This document shows positions 55,602 to 60,027 of a stretch of 64,000 nucleotides of DNA, one piece after another. The translations under genes were made by a program, and so were the position numbers. Positions within the stretch are counted from its first letter, which is position 1, and every line of letters starts with the position of its first letter. Source of the DNA: Roseococcus microcysteis (GTDB lineage: Bacteria; Pseudomonadota; Alphaproteobacteria; Acetobacterales; Acetobacteraceae); contig NZ_CP061718.1 of assembly GCF_014764365.1 (NCBI RefSeq), positions 1,240,001 to 1,304,000 on the forward strand, given 5' to 3'. The notes beneath the pieces are model-generated. The model was not told the DNA's origin and made no database searches. It saw nothing but the letters and a program-made list of their open reading frames with translations.

Positions 55602-56627
55602 ATGTTCCGTCGTCGCCTTCTCCTGCCGGCCCTGCTGCTCCTCGCGGCGGGCGGGGCCTGGGCCTGGTTCGGCGCGCCGCCCCGCCTGGCAATGGCCCCC
55701 GTCACCACCGGGCCGGCGCTGGAGGCGGTCTATGCCACCGGTTCCGTCGAGCCGGTGCAGATGGCCCGCGTGGGGCCCGCCACGCGCGGCCGCCTGACCG
55801 CCCTGCTGGTGGATGAGGGCCAGCGCGTCACCGAGGGCCAGCCCATGGCGCGGCTCGATGACCGCCAGACCCGCGCTTTGGCCGAGGAGGCCGAGGCCCG
55901 CGCCCGCTTCGCCCAGGACGACCTGGCCCGCACCCGCGCCCTCGTCACCCGCGACATCGCCGCCCGCGCCACGCTGGACCGCGCCGAGCGCGATGCCGAG
56001 GCCGCCCGCGCCACCGCCGAGGCCGCGCGCCAGCGCCTGGACGACCATGTGGTGCGGGCGCCGGCCGGCGGCGTGGTGCTGCGCCGCGATGGCGAGGTGG
56101 GCGAGGTGGTGGACACCCCCACCACCCTCTTCTGGATCGGCGAAATCCGCCCCCTGCGCGTCACCGCCGAGGTGGATGAGGAGGACATCGCCCGCGTCAT
56201 GATCGGCCAGCCCGCCTTGCTGCGTGCCGATGCCTTCCCGGGCCGGGTGCTGCGGGGCGAGGTCGCGCAGATCACCCCGCGCGGCGACACGACGCGCAAG
56301 GCCTATCGCGTGCGCCTGGCTTTGTCCGAGGACACGCCGCTGATGGTGGGCATGACGGTGGAGGCCAACATCGTGCTGCGCGAGGCGAGCGACGCCCTGC
56401 TGGTACCCCCCGCCGCCGTGGCGCTGGACCCCGACAGCCCGCCCGGCCGCACAAGGCGCGGCCATGTCTGGCTGGTGCGCGAGGGGCGGCTGGAGCGCCG
56501 CGCCGTGCTGCTGGGCGTGCAGGGCGCGCGGGCGGTGGAGGTGCTGGAAGGCCTCGCCCGGGGTGATTCGGTGGTGGCGGAGGCGAGGCCCTCCTTCCGC
56601 GAGGGCCAGCGGGTCCGGGCGCCGTGA
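55602..56627 (+). CDS. HlyD/MacA-type membrane fusion (periplasmic adaptor) protein
   Basis: A 341-residue adaptor of an ABC export system. It has an N-terminal signal-anchor (MFRRRLLLPALLLLAAGGAWAW), then a barrel-sandwich half YATGSVEPVQMARVGPA with the GRLTALLVDEGQRVTEGQP lipoyl motif. A coiled-coil helical hairpin (residues ~75-145) and the returning DHVVRAPAGGVVLRRDGE half-lipoyl follow. It would bridge the inner-membrane transporter to an outer-membrane channel that is not in the window. A GTG at 55578 gives eight extra residues; the ATG at 55602 was preferred. It overlaps the permease gene (GTGA). Confidence 0.87.
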   Translation: MFRRRLLLPALLLLAAGGAWAWFGAPPRLAMAPVTTGPALEAVYATGSVEPVQMARVGPATRGRLTALLVDEGQRVTEGQPMARLDDRQTRALAEEAEARARFAQDDLARTRALVTRDIAARATLDRAERDAEAARATAEAARQRLDDHVVRAPAGGVVLRRDGEVGEVVDTPTTLFWIGEIRPLRVTAEVDEEDIARVMIGQPALLRADAFPGRVLRGEVAQITPRGDTTRKAYRVRLALSEDTPLMVGMTVEANIVLREASDALLVPPAAVALDPDSPPGRTRRGHVWLVREGRLERRAVLLGVQGARAVEVLEGLARGDSVVAEARPSFREGQRVRAP

Positions 56628-57868
56628 ACCTCATCCTGGACCTGGCGCGCGGCATGCTGCGGCGGCGGCGCAGGCAGACGCTGGTCTCGGTCATGGGGGT
56701 CGCGCTGGGGGTCGCCTTCTTCATCGCGATCGCGGGGATGATGCGCGGCTTCCAGACCTATTTCGTGGCCCAGATCATCGACGTGGCGCCGCACATCACC
56801 ATCAAGGACGAAACGCGCGCGCCGCCGGTGCAGGCGGCCATGCTGGCCTCGCCCGAGGGGGCCGTCTCGGTGCGGGGGGTGCGGCCGCAGGACAGCATCC
56901 GCGGCATCCGCGCCGCGGGTGAGAAGCTGGCCATGCTGGAAGCCATGCCCGGCGTGGCCGCCGCCCCTGTGCTGGGGGGCCAGGCGCTGCTGCGCTATGG
57001 CGCGCGCGACGTCTCGGCCACGCTGCTGGGCGTGGACCCGGAACGGCACCGCCGCGTCTCCAACATCGAGAAGGACATGTTCGCGGGGCGGCTCGAGGAT
57101 CTGCGCGCCACGGCGAACGGCATCATCATCGGCGAGGCGCTGGCGCAGCGGCTGGGGGTGGGGATGGGCGACACCATCTCGGCCATCTCGCCTGCCGGGG
57201 TGGTGCTGTCCATGCGGGTGGCGGGGCTGTTCCGCACCGGCATCCAGAATGTGGACCAGGGCCAGGGCTTCGTGCTGCTGACGGTGCAGCAGGTGCTGCA
57301 GAACCGGCCCAACACGGTGAACCAGATCCTCGTGCGGCTGGCGGACGTGACCCAGGCCGAACCCCTGGCACGCCGCATCGAGGCGCGCTTCGGCAACCGC
57401 ACCGAAAGCTGGGAGGAGCAGAACCGGAACATCCTGACCGTCTTCGTGATCCAGAACGCCATCATGTATTCGGTGACGGGGGCCATCCTGCTGGTCGCCG
57501 CCTTTGGCATCTACAACATCATCTCGACCGTGGTGTTCGAGAAGACGCGCGACATCGCCATCCTGAAATCCCTCGGCTTCGCGGAGGGCGACATCCAGCG
57601 GCTGTTTCTCGTGCAGGGGCTGGTGGTGGGGGTGCTGGGGGCGGTGCTGGGCTGTGCCCTGGGGGCCGCCATGATCGAGGGGCTGGCCCAGGTGCGCTTC
57701 GGCGTGGACACGCCGGCCGGGCAGGACCGCTTCGTGCTGTCGCGCGACTGGCGCATCTACGTGATCGCCTCGGGCTTCGCCATCGCCTCCTCGGCGGTGG
57801 CGGCGCTGGTGCCGGCGCGGCGGGCCTCGCGGCTCGACCCCGTGCAGGTGGTGCGGGGGGCGGCGTGA
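56624..57868 (+). CDS. ABC transporter permease, MacB/DevC-like (FtsX family)
   Basis: A 414-residue permease with GTG start. The N-terminal span (RQTLVSVMGVALGVAFFIAIAGM) is followed by a MacB-type periplasmic core (residues ~40-240), with the motif VSATLLGVDPERHRR, then three more spans with the FtsX signature (YSVTGAILLVAAFGIYNIIS, then IAILKSLGFAEGDIQRLFL). The ending VPARRASRLDPVQVVRGAA is a canonical FtsX/MacB C-terminus. It works with the adaptor and the ATPase. It resembles both MacB and DevC-type (glycolipid) exporters. Confidence 0.9.
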   Translation: MNLILDLARGMLRRRRRQTLVSVMGVALGVAFFIAIAGMMRGFQTYFVAQIIDVAPHITIKDETRAPPVQAAMLASPEGAVSVRGVRPQDSIRGIRAAGEKLAMLEAMPGVAAAPVLGGQALLRYGARDVSATLLGVDPERHRRVSNIEKDMFAGRLEDLRATANGIIIGEALAQRLGVGMGDTISAISPAGVVLSMRVAGLFRTGIQNVDQGQGFVLLTVQQVLQNRPNTVNQILVRLADVTQAEPLARRIEARFGNRTESWEEQNRNILTVFVIQNAIMYSVTGAILLVAAFGIYNIISTVVFEKTRDIAILKSLGFAEGDIQRLFLVQGLVVGVLGAVLGCALGAAMIEGLAQVRFGVDTPAGQDRFVLSRDWRIYVIASGFAIASSAVAALVPARRASRLDPVQVVRGAA

Positions 57869-58548
57869 CCGTGCTGCTGGAGGCGCGGGGCATGACGCGC
57901 CGCCTGGCCGCCGAGGGCGTCACGCTGGTGCGCGACGTGAACCTCAGCTTCGGCCATGGGGAGTTCGTGGCCATCACGGGGCCGTCAGGCTCGGGCAAGT
58001 CCTCGCTGCTGTATCTGCTGGGGCTGCTCGACCGGCCGACCGAGGGCCAGGTGCTGCTGGAGGGCCAGGACACGGTGGGCCTCGCGCCGCCGGCCATGGC
58101 CGCGCTGCGGCTCAGGCATCTGGGCTTCGTCTTCCAGTTCCATTTCCTGCTGCCGGAATTCACCGCGCTGGAGAACGTGCTGATCCCCATCCGCAAGCTG
58201 GGGGCGCTGGAGGGCGAGGCGGCGCGGGTCTCCGCGATGGCGCTGCTGGAGGGGCTGGGGTTGGCGCCGGCCGCGGCCAAACTGCCGGAACAGCTTTCGG
58301 GCGGCATGCGCCAGCGCGTGGCCATCGCCCGCGCCCTGGCGAACAACCCCGTGCTGGTGCTGGCGGACGAACCCACGGGCAACCTGGACACGAAGAACGC
58401 CGCCGCCGTCTTCGACATCTTCGAGCGGATGACCCAGGCGGAAGGCCGCACCGTGCTGGTCGTGACCCATGACCCGGACCTGGCCGCGCGGGCCACGCGG
58501 CGGGTGCATCTGGTGGATGGGGCGGTGGTGTCCGACACGCGGCGCTGA
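57865..58548 (+). CDS. ABC transporter ATP-binding protein (MacB/LolD/DevA-like)
   Basis: A 227-residue ATPase with Walker A GPSGSGKSSLLYLLGLLDRP near residues 40-59, Q-loop FVFQFHFLLPEFTALENV, signature [15 protein letters not shown], Walker B VLVLADEPTGNLD and a switch His in VVTHDPDLAAR. It belongs to the LolD/MacB/DevA subfamily that works with FtsX-like permeases, often on hydrophobic or lipid-linked substrates. Its GTG start overlaps the permease stop (GTGA). The order adaptor-permease-ATPase is that of dev-type operons rather than macAB (fused). Confidence 0.93.
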   Translation: MTVLLEARGMTRRLAAEGVTLVRDVNLSFGHGEFVAITGPSGSGKSSLLYLLGLLDRPTEGQVLLEGQDTVGLAPPAMAALRLRHLGFVFQFHFLLPEFTALENVLIPIRKLGALEGEAARVSAMALLEGLGLAPAAAKLPEQLSGGMRQRVAIARALANNPVLVLADEPTGNLDTKNAAAVFDIFERMTQAEGRTVLVVTHDPDLAARATRRVHLVDGAVVSDTRR

Positions 58549-58896
58549 ATGGGCCGTTAAATCCTTATGCGCACAGCGGGAAACAGCCCTGCGCGCGGGG
58601 CGGAATCGGCCCGATAACCCTTGCATGGGGACGAATCAGGGCGTATGTCCCCCCTTACAAGACGCAGTACGCACGTGCCTCTGGCCCCAGGCCCACGGAG
58701 CTGAGCCAAAGTTAAGGCTTGCCACCGCGGCGCAAGGTTTACGCAACGACGTCAAGCGTTCTGGCAACCCCGTGTGTTGCCCCTGATGGGGGCCGCGCAT
58801 GGTTTTCTTCTGGTCGCTGGTTCGTTCGACCGTTTCGTCAATCTGGGGCGGCCCCTGGGATGGGGGCGTTCCACATATGTAGTGGAGGATGGTGCG
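58549..58896 (+). promoter_or_regulatory. Structured leader of the ornithine decarboxylase gene (speF-type candidate)
   Basis: A 348-base gap with no large gene, but organised. GCCCC (58779-58783) pairs with GGGGC (58789-58793), directly upstream of a 27-codon ORF (58799-58882). A near-identical GCCCC (58851-58855) and GGGGC (58863-58867) pair lies inside that ORF, so the first and second arms can swap. An alternative helix, GGGG (58845-58848) with CCCC (58852-58855), competes with the second. A cis-regulatory RNA called speF has been described before ornithine decarboxylase genes in alphaproteobacteria; this region is a candidate. A weaker hairpin (58569-58594) lies just after the ABC operon. 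No promoter is confidently placed. Confidence 0.55.
58799..58882 (+). CDS. Short upstream ORF (27 codons) in the ornithine decarboxylase leader
   Basis: ATG at 58799 opens a 27-codon frame ending in TAG (58880-58882), 14 bases before the decarboxylase ATG. The peptide begins MVFFWSLVRSTVSSIWGG and ends in a Gly/Pro/Trp-rich tail with final HM; three Trp and two Phe occur in 27 residues. A GGGGG run lies 6-10 bases before the start, a possible ribosome site inside a hairpin. It is in a different frame from the decarboxylase. No homologue can be named here. By analogy with the enteric SpeFL arrest peptide, which senses ornithine, it may control translation of the next gene; this is inference. 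Confidence 0.5.
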   Translation: MVFFWSLVRSTVSSIWGGPWDGGVPHM

Positions 58897-60027
58897 ATGA
58901 CCCCCAAGGTCGCTCGCTATCTCGCGGACACGCAACCGGCCACGCCGTGCCTCGTGCTCGACGTGGACCGCGTGGAAGACAATTTCCGCCGGCTTCAGGC
59001 GGCGCTTCCGCTCGCGCGCATCTATTATGCCGTGAAGGCGAACCCGGCCGCGCCCATCCTGGAGCGCCTGGTGGGGCTCGGCTCCTTCTTCGACGCCGCC
59101 TCCTTCCAGGAGGTGACCATGTGCCTCGACGCCGGCTCCGCTCCCGGTGCGATCAGCTATGGCAACACCATCAAGAAGGAGCGCGACATCGCGGCCGCCT
59201 ATGCGGCGGGCGTGCGGATGTTCGCCTTCGACAGCGAGGCGGAGCTGGAGAAGCTCGCCCGTTCGGCCCCCGGTGCGCGCGTCTATTGCCGCATCCTGGT
59301 CGGCAATGACGGCGCCGAATGGCCGCTCAGCCGGAAGTTCGGCTGCGAGGTCGAGATGGCGCGCGCGCTGATGATCCGCGCCGGTGAGCTGGGCCTCGAC
59401 GCCTTCGGCCTGTCCTTCCATGTGGGCAGCCAGCAGACCCAGACCGCGGCCTATGAAGCGGCCATCGCCAAGGTCGCCATGCTCTTCACCGACCTCGAGG
59501 AGGCCGGCGTGAAGGTGCGCATGGTGAACCTCGGCGGCGGCTACCCGGTGCGCTACAAGGCGGAAGTGCCCGAGATCGACGATTTCGGCGCGGCCATCAT
59601 GGGCGCCATGGTCAAGCATTTCGGCAACTCCCTGCCCGAGATCGTGATCGAGCCGGGCCGCTTCCTGGTGGCCGATGCGGGCGTCGTGCAGTCCGAGGTG
59701 GTGCTGGTCTCGCGCAAGGGCGCGGAAGACCCGGTGCGCTGGGTCTATCTCGACATCGGCCGCTTCGGCGGCCTGGCCGAGACCGAGGGCGAGGCCATCA
59801 AATACGCCTTCCGCACGCCGCATGACGGCGCGTCGGAGGGGCCGGTGACCATCGCGGGGCCCACCTGCGACAGCACGGACACGCTCTACGAGAAGAGCAA
59901 CTACCGGCTGCCCATGGCCCTGCGAGACGGTGACAAGGTGGAGATGCTGGCGACCGGCGCCTACGTCACCACCTATGCCAGCCAGAGGTTCAACGGCTTC
60001 ACGCCGCTGGCCGAGCACTACATCTGA
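58897..60027 (+). CDS. Ornithine (or lysine/ornithine) decarboxylase, type III PLP-dependent
   Basis: A 376-residue fold-III decarboxylase that makes putrescine from ornithine (some members also use lysine or other basic acids). PLP-binding Lys48 lies in YYAVKANP; GNTIKKERDI is typical of this clade. FHVGSQQ holds His175 over the ring, EPGR (252-255) binds the phosphate, and GPTCDSTDTLYE supplies the catalytic Cys324 and Asp325. Start at 58897 follows a GGAGG site at 58883-58887, right after the upstream ORF stop. An earlier in-frame ATG at 58774 would read through the leader and was not used. A hairpin follows the gene. Confidence 0.9.
   Translation: MTPKVARYLADTQPATPCLVLDVDRVEDNFRRLQAALPLARIYYAVKANPAAPILERLVGLGSFFDAASFQEVTMCLDAGSAPGAISYGNTIKKERDIAAAYAAGVRMFAFDSEAELEKLARSAPGARVYCRILVGNDGAEWPLSRKFGCEVEMARALMIRAGELGLDAFGLSFHVGSQQTQTAAYEAAIAKVAMLFTDLEEAGVKVRMVNLGGGYPVRYKAEVPEIDDFGAAIMGAMVKHFGNSLPEIVIEPGRFLVADAGVVQSEVVLVSRKGAEDPVRWVYLDIGRFGGLAETEGEAIKYAFRTPHDGASEGPVTIAGPTCDSTDTLYEKSNYRLPMALRDGDKVEMLATGAYVTTYASQRFNGFTPLAEHYI

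Follow-up and report, generated by a model that had tools for sequence, protein, structure and literature searches.

A conserved three-strand leader RNA of an Acetobacteraceae ornithine decarboxylase gene, a probable branch of a wider alphaproteobacterial element including ar45 and speF

The decarboxylase gene and its leader

The window (the whole stretch of 64,000 nucleotides analysed here, from Roseococcus microcysteis) carries on its forward strand a gene for a 376-residue PLP-dependent decarboxylase with the Pfam domains PF02784 and PF00278. The closest solved chains bear the name lysine/ornithine decarboxylase (5gjm, E 2.6e-60), and seven NCBIfam models match the protein, every one below its cut-off. 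By identity of this ornithine decarboxylase (ODC), the nearest relatives are Roseococcus thiosulfatophilus (locus L001, 99%) and L067 (98%). The gene begins with GUGCGAUGACC, in which the start codon is ATG. Its frame stays open in the 5' direction as far as a GTG at 58774 (58774-60027, +), so automatic annotation could add a false 41-residue extension across the RNA element described below. Upstream of the decarboxylase, at 56624-58548 (+), lie genes which by eye resemble an ABC-type export permease and its ATPase. The sole Rfam match in the whole window is the bacterial RNase P class A RNA at 1386-1773 (+; 261.7 bits).

A scan of species genomes yielded 74 loci coding for decarboxylase relatives, of which one partial match (L074) was excluded. 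Among the remaining 73 and the window, the core block upstream of the decarboxylase was present in 60 and absent in 14. The window's family corresponds to family f1 of our genome set and is named Acetobacteraceae here because the named relatives from the species-genome scan belong there. Of the leaders tested in it, 76 came from searches with the RNA model and 38 from the retrieval of ODC relatives; an ODC homologue follows in every case (114/114). The labels "ar45/speF-type" and "general" are our own names for members outside this family. The features of the leader in the window are as follows:

58621-58649, +: predicted sigma-70-like promoter, with -35 TTGCAT (58621-58626), 17-nt spacer and -10 TATGTC (58644-58649)
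58660-58688, +: strand A, AGACGCAGUACGCACGUGCCUCUGGCCC, 5' arm of an ar45-like hairpin (putative state 1)
58689-58735, +: variable insert between A and B, from alignments of relatives
58736-58769, +: strand B, GGUUUACGCAACGACGUCAAGCGUUCUGGCAACC, putative partner of A (state 1) or C (state 2), from alignments, folds and the models R1 and R3
58770-58802, +: variable hairpin capping the B:C stem, absent from L047, L050 and L057; it holds the hairpin 58779-58793 and the ATG (58799-58801) of the upstream ORF
58799-58882, +: upstream ORF of 27 codons, not conserved and judged to be a chance ORF
58812-58844, +: strand C, GGUCGCUGGUUCGUUCGACCGUUUCGUCAAUCU, 3' arm of the bulged B:C stem (putative state 2)
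58845-58872, +: P3, a GC-rich hairpin after C with outer pairs GGGGCG...CGUUCC, which includes the hairpin 58851-58867
58870-58889, +: small hairpin UCCAC/GUGGA in the fold of the window, overlapping the Shine-Dalgarno sequence GGAGGA (58884-58889)
58897-60027, +: ornithine decarboxylase-like gene

From the predicted promoter, transcription would begin near 58655-58660, and strand A would sit at that start. Upstream of strand A, the most frequent bases at -15 to -10 read TATATG (each found in 48 to 67 of 111 leaders) and those at -38 to -33 read TTTGCC (each in 42 to 82 of 111).

Conserved strands and an unconserved upstream ORF

Judged by comparison of the leaders, the conserved feature is the set of RNA strands A, B and C, with no conserved peptide. 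Strand A follows one pattern in 112 of 114 leaders, the exceptions being one cut by a contig end (L011) and one that deviates (L163), and has CGCACGUGCC in common with ar45/speF leaders. The distance from the GUGCC of A to B ranges from 14 to 81 nt (112 leaders). Downstream, the ODC start lies 41-69 nt past C in 107 leaders, with the ATG 50-66 nt after C in 99 of them. P3 recurs with altered sequence in relatives (by eye), and it forms when a leader is folded without strand A (L105, state 2). In the minimum fold of the window's whole leader, the partner of GGGG is instead the A-B insert, and of P3 just the inner hairpin forms. In 67 of 109 leaders the Shine-Dalgarno sequence is partly paired, with most of it on a 3' arm; by eye, its hairpin is clear in Roseomonas-like relatives and weak or absent in others.

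A sequence-only reading of this DNA had inferred that a W/F-rich peptide, encoded by the upstream ORF, is the sensor. The ORF does exist at 58799-58882, and its stop lies 14 nt upstream of the ODC ATG at 58897. However, the position of its ATG is occupied by ACG in both L001 and L067, and among 120 distinct leaders an ATG in this frame within 75 nt was found in just one, the window's own copy. When any of ATG, GTG and TTG was allowed, 29 of the 120 had one, while 11 contained an in-frame stop one codon into the core (10 TAG, 1 TGA). For the distance to the stop, 114 leaders give 39, 41 and 44 different values, one number per frame, so that it is conserved in none of the three; one-base deletions in Roseomonas-like relatives shift the frame of the ORF. 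From these comparisons we conclude that the presence of the ORF does not appear to exceed chance and, since its ATG, reading frame and stop distance are all unconserved, that the peptide is not under selection. Enteric speFL senses via a peptide. A conserved short ORF with conserved start and length, as in a speFL-like leader, was not found in these sets of 120 and 114 leaders, and the proposed peptide sensor is thus not borne out (ATG in 1/120, in-frame stop in 11/120). That reading had also called for conservation of the ORF to be weighed against that of the helices: the ORF proved unconserved in related leaders, and helices proved conserved, but other ones, between strands A, B and C.

The GC hairpins at 58779-58793 and 58851-58867 and the G-run at 58845-58848 are present as that reading described them, yet the two hairpins do not behave as the interchangeable pair it took them for. 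The first is the variable tip of a larger stem and is missing, for example, in L047, L050 and L057; the second forms the inside of P3, a hairpin found again, with altered sequence, in those relatives inspected by eye. Their likeness as near copies showed no apparent retention in relatives (by eye). The real signal lies partly beyond the stretch considered in that reading and begins at 58660. Two pairings of the G-run were tried as candidates and set aside. As for CCCC (58768-58771) with GGGG (58845-58848), a switch of this kind is attractive in single relatives, but GGGG has its partner within P3 in the folds inspected by eye. As for GGGG with codons 2-4 of the ODC gene, the pairing is not retained in relatives (by eye).

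Pairing of strand B with C and with A

In RNAfold predictions for single leaders, B and C pair as one long stem with fixed internal loops, and RNAalifold on 57 aligned leaders also gives this stem. Within the window's family no covariation of B:C was found (RNAalifold term 0.02, no double changes in the 57 sequences), because the strands hardly vary there. Roseomonas-like relatives have one-base deletions in a U-run of C; these can be aligned to a position that B:C leaves unpaired, although MAFFT sets some of them beside it. The model R1, built on B:C, matches 260 of 299 genomes of the window's family and gives a single match in the window's own genome; of the weaker matches 30 were refetched, and 20 others were taken as stretches. 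An alignment of 72 sense R1 hits (69 distinct; 8 antisense rows dropped) was fitted to the model and thus favours it; in it, the 18 core pairs of B:C are standard in 1285 of 1296 cells, including 30 that changed yet stayed paired, the rest being 10 gaps and 1 mismatch, and the nine outer and tip pairs are standard in 491 of 648 cells. The B:C stem is more stable than its shuffles (mean z -2.5 for the first 20 of 62 compact members). When arms were swapped between leaders, the native combination was better in 26/36, 18/30 and 41/65 cases, with pairing little weakened, and for the clamp in 20/36, 25/30 and 33/65. Whole-leader folds were modestly better than shuffles in the window (z -1.54) and no better in L047 (z +0.44). 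R1 matched none of 11 speF loci and none of 14 further ODC leaders at E up to 0.01. On this evidence from aligned and folded sequences, B:C is a conserved bulged stem in the window's family.

The A:B hairpin has a frequent form in genomes of the class, which reads GACGC..CGCACGUGCC..GGCC-loop-GGUU..GCAACGACG..GCGUC-CUUUUU and looks like an intrinsic terminator. A run of four or more U follows B in 26 of 35 distinct general leaders and 33 of 37 of the ar45/speF type, against 1 of 114 in the window's family. In the window, GCGUUCUGGC follows B and no terminator U-run stands directly after A:B; to judge from these counts, the U-run has been lost in its family. The pattern CGCACGTGCC-N12-42-GCAACGACG occurred in 34 of 279 class genomes, compared with 1 for the backward-read control. 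In 928 kb of DNA there were 193 copies of CGCACGUGCC, 213 of GCAACGACG and 190 places with both within 300 nt, counts that express co-occurrence and not rarity, because most of this DNA had been fetched for holding such leaders. The arm pair was also present in 7 of 14 decarboxylase leaders without the family core, three of these seven being from Magnetospirillum.

A second model, R3, was built from 47 sequences (alignment A4), leaving out the window and the ar45 loci. Members of A4 had been chosen by exact match of both arms, hence the inner helix is invariant in it. Five cells of A4 carry double changes, a number reached by none of 500 shuffles; two of the five covariation measures were reached by 256 and 44 of the 500. 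In the window's own genome, R3 matched only 58661-58767 (58.1 bits, E 2.8e-11), and it matched 49 of 279 class genomes, which are alphaproteobacterial. At genome scale it found 4 of 11 ar45 places (G264, G028, G225 and G121; E 1e-4 to 6e-3), R3 E-values being approximate throughout owing to a short calibration. A search of smaller scope recovered 11 of 13 ar45/speF-type loci, with L083 and L085 missed, and every one of the 73 other sources.

Covariation of A:B was then assessed on 84 R3 hits (83 distinct rows), in an alignment fitted to R3 in which related members are counted several times. Of 1189 cells, 95.0% pair, compared with 91.2% in shuffles. Changes on both sides affect 8 pairs, against a mean of 3.0 after shuffling, and 34 cells, against 5.0. 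For each of the five measures the real value was out of reach of all 500 shuffles; once A:B is slid, 19 to 55% of cells pair. Within the inner helix, G-C is replaced by A-U in L302, L311, L312, L318 and L319 and by G-U in L183, L308, L314, L315 and L320, while U-A has become C-G in L317. Taken by itself, A:B shows no excess stability over shuffles in the window's family (mean z +1.0, 20 members), and its duplex is predicted at -14.3 kcal/mol versus -13.5 with A shuffled. A duplex of A with C, as a possible third state, gives -16.3 versus -13.5 kcal/mol and is suggestive. The A:B state in the window is thus proposed on the basis of homology, of covariation in the wider set and of a conservation of A that B:C does not need.

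In the ar45/speF-type leaders, too, the folds show a second stem. Loci with speF were fetched from 9 of 289 class genomes above cut-off, and in all four loci scanned RF02347 ar45 lies directly 5' of speF; in L075-L085 and L185-L224 the two look like one unit. The ODC proteins of the ar45/speF-type loci L232, L233 and L244 are 56-58% identical to that of the window. In these folds, part of speF pairs with the 3' arm of ar45 and the U-run behind it, and this pairing makes up the long stem of speF. Four bases around the end of GCAACGACG change together with their partners: GGUG/CACC in 16/16, GUAG with CUAC or CUAU in 15/15, GGAC/GUCU in 2/2 and GAAC/GUUU in 1/1, while GGAG (1) and GGUC (2) match their partners at three of four bases. 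A sliding 4-mer control (native 34/37, swapped 435/878) was not strict enough, since it permitted sliding as well as G-U pairs; the claim therefore rests on the four-base pairs listed. From this we infer that ar45 would be a terminator and speF its antiterminator, and that the ar45 small RNA reported in Sinorhizobium and Bartonella would be the prematurely ended leader, a view not voiced in the passages on ar45 and speF consulted here.

Proposed switch, rival readings and known systems

The genes behind the element are mostly polyamine-related. Besides the window, there are 83 R3 members: 58 stand before an ODC homologue, 17 before a second, L226-like PLP decarboxylase, two before a homospermidine synthase (L245, L256) and two before neither (L302, L313), and four have too little sequence. 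A polyamine-type gene thus follows in 77 of the 79 with enough sequence, although some of these members entered the set as ODC relatives. Among solved structures, the L245 protein is matched by homospermidine synthases (E 4e-141); NCBIfam assigns it no family.

Several observations accompany this survey. The element was seen before homospermidine synthase in L245/L268 and L256 and before the second PLP decarboxylase in L226, L238, L257 and L303, and in L313 a glutamine-amidotransferase-like frame (named by eye) comes next. Several genomes carry two or three copies of the element, and G226 holds both an ar45/speF locus (L079) and a general-type element (L246). In the general members L225-L267, strand C mostly contains a Shine-Dalgarno-like stretch and an AUG about 47-91 nt after the start of GCAACGACG. 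The ORFs behind this AUG vary in sequence and length; in L257 the decarboxylase itself seems to start there.

We propose that A and B would pair first as the RNA emerges, and that C would then compete for B. Since both pairings need B, A:B and B:C would exclude each other, with A:B as the OFF state (state 1) and B:C as the ON state (state 2). In most other members, A:B with its U-run would stop transcription, while B:C would let it continue. In the window's family the strands have been kept and the U-run is gone, hence the output would probably be how easily ribosomes reach the start site close by. When A or B was left out of the fold, the predicted unpaired fraction of the Shine-Dalgarno sequence changed little, from 0.24 to 0.29; it was more open in state 2 in 23 of 107 leaders and in state 1 in 1 of 107. 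On these predictions, a shift to translational control in the window's family is plausible but weakly supported. The candidate signal is most likely a metabolite of the polyamine pathway, acting directly or through a protein, given the genes behind the element.

The best reading of the locus, in our opinion, is a family-wide structured RNA without an Rfam match that forms a divergent branch of the orphan ar45/speF system. Stated as a regulator, it would be a cis-acting leader RNA of the ODC gene and the Acetobacteraceae branch of a wider alphaproteobacterial element including ar45 and speF, with a two-state switch as the presumed mode of action; we put the probability of this at roughly three in four. 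The control by translation or attenuation that the sequence-only reading had suggested would thus persist as cis-regulation of ODC through alternative RNA structures, freed of the peptide and of the two hairpins as a pair.

Four rival explanations were weighed. In the window's family the leader might have a single state, the B:C stem, and lack the A:B alternative; it would then bind a protein or act as a stability element. B:C is indeed the stable fold there, A:B is weak and the U-run is lost (1/114), but strand A keeps one pattern in 112/114 leaders although B:C makes no use of it, and A:B covaries across the wider set including the window; we therefore regard this alternative as unlikely. 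A chance still smaller by far attaches to translation of the 27-codon ORF, with the peptide or its ribosome sensing ornithine or polyamines as in enteric speFL. The ORF is really present in the window, and many other alphaproteobacterial members have a Shine-Dalgarno sequence and AUG in strand C, where short ORFs may matter. Against this stand the single in-frame ATG among 120 leaders, the 11 leaders with an in-frame stop in the core, the 39, 41 and 44 different stop distances over the three frames (114 leaders) and the frame-shifting one-base deletions of Roseomonas-like relatives.

Another possibility, which we consider very improbable, is that the 5' part acts mainly in trans as an ar45-like small RNA, its leader position being secondary. 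It could draw on the descriptions of ar45 as a separate transcript in Bartonella (PMC7717549) and as a candidate sRNA in Sinorhizobium (PMC2573895). However, premature termination at A:B would yield an identical short RNA, 77 of 79 R3 members with enough sequence (part of them fetched as ODC relatives) precede a polyamine-type gene, and the U-run is missing from the form found in the family of the window. Finally, the conserved blocks might be DNA operator sites just 3' of the promoter, as could be suggested by CACGTG, a palindrome that most members carry close to the predicted start of transcription. Changes at paired positions preserve the pairing even within the CACGTG block, and ar45 and speF RNAs have been reported in cells (PMC7717549), so that we give this idea hardly any credence.

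Beyond the preferred reading of a cis-acting leader RNA lies a broader and more tentative proposal, to which we would grant somewhat less than an even chance: ODC, the second PLP decarboxylase and homospermidine synthase would all be controlled by a single switch RNA of ancient origin in the Alphaproteobacteria, a candidate riboswitch of the polyamine pathway. The ar45 "sRNA" would be its prematurely terminated product and speF its antiterminator half, and the window's branch would have dropped the terminator and act on translation. Since 2005 speF has counted as an orphan leader, and a possible role of ar45 as a trans-acting sRNA has been under discussion. Should the two prove to be parts of a single attenuator that spans many alphaproteobacterial families and also stands before homospermidine synthase, the question of sensing could be addressed with full-length A-to-C RNAs, including compact forms. 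Further polyamines would then be worth asking about, for example homospermidine, which is absent from the six compounds named in the 2005 passage on speF (PMC1273637). Among the matches listed in a search of the main texts of open-licence literature, there was nothing on an Acetobacteraceae ODC leader, nor on ar45 and speF as one attenuator.

Several known systems resemble the window's leader in part. The odc1 motif (uORF-25-1) is also an alphaproteobacterial ODC leader for which translational control is proposed, but as described (PMC8632094) it features a pair of UUG starts spaced two nucleotides apart and an 11-residue uORF that is conserved, whereas the window has an ATG start and no conserved uORF. 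None of its marks (UUG as main start, a second UUG two nucleotides 5', the 11-residue uORF) was found in the window. Enteric speF/speFL (PMC6386406) shares with the window an inducible ornithine decarboxylase under leader control; the window's leader is without a conserved peptide. The spermidine riboswitch, a SAM-I variant (PMC10853860), likewise represents RNA control of polyamine genes, and no Rfam match to the window's leader was obtained at E up to 5.

The closest counterparts are speF and ar45, whose published examples come from Agrobacterium, Sinorhizobium and Bartonella (PMC1273637, PMC2573895, PMC7717549). At the gathering score, cmscan matched neither speF (RF00518) nor ar45 (RF02347) in the window, and 58400-59000 had no match at E up to 5 among 4227 Rfam families. 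In the window's own genome, speF was found in 0/1, with control genomes likewise without a match, and ar45 was absent at E 0.01; ar45 was also absent from L047, L050, L057, L013, L036, L020 and L001 at E up to 2. Twenty loci with the A:B hairpin gave no relevant Rfam match at E up to 0.5. The link to the speF motif drawn by the sequence-only reading therefore fails in the direct search of the leader and holds indirectly, through R3, which was built without ar45 loci and joins ar45 with the window. The speF leader (Corbino et al. 2005; PMC1273637), the Agrobacterium RNA of which bound none of six tested metabolites according to the passage on it, resembles the window's leader as a homologous ODC leader with a long bulged stem behind a first stem; it differs in the sequence of the second domain, R1 misses the 11 speF loci, and Rfam gives no match. 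The alphaproteobacterial sRNA ar45 (smrC45) closes with GCCC/GGGC and as a rule continues into a U-run (33/37), whereas the window has no U-run and runs into strand C. Common to ar45 and the window are the CGCACGUGCC arm, the GCAACGACG arm, the same internal loops and a position upstream of ornithine decarboxylase. The window's leader is thus tied to ar45 by a homologous A:B hairpin with these two arms, recognised through R3, and to speF by its place directly upstream of an ODC homologue.
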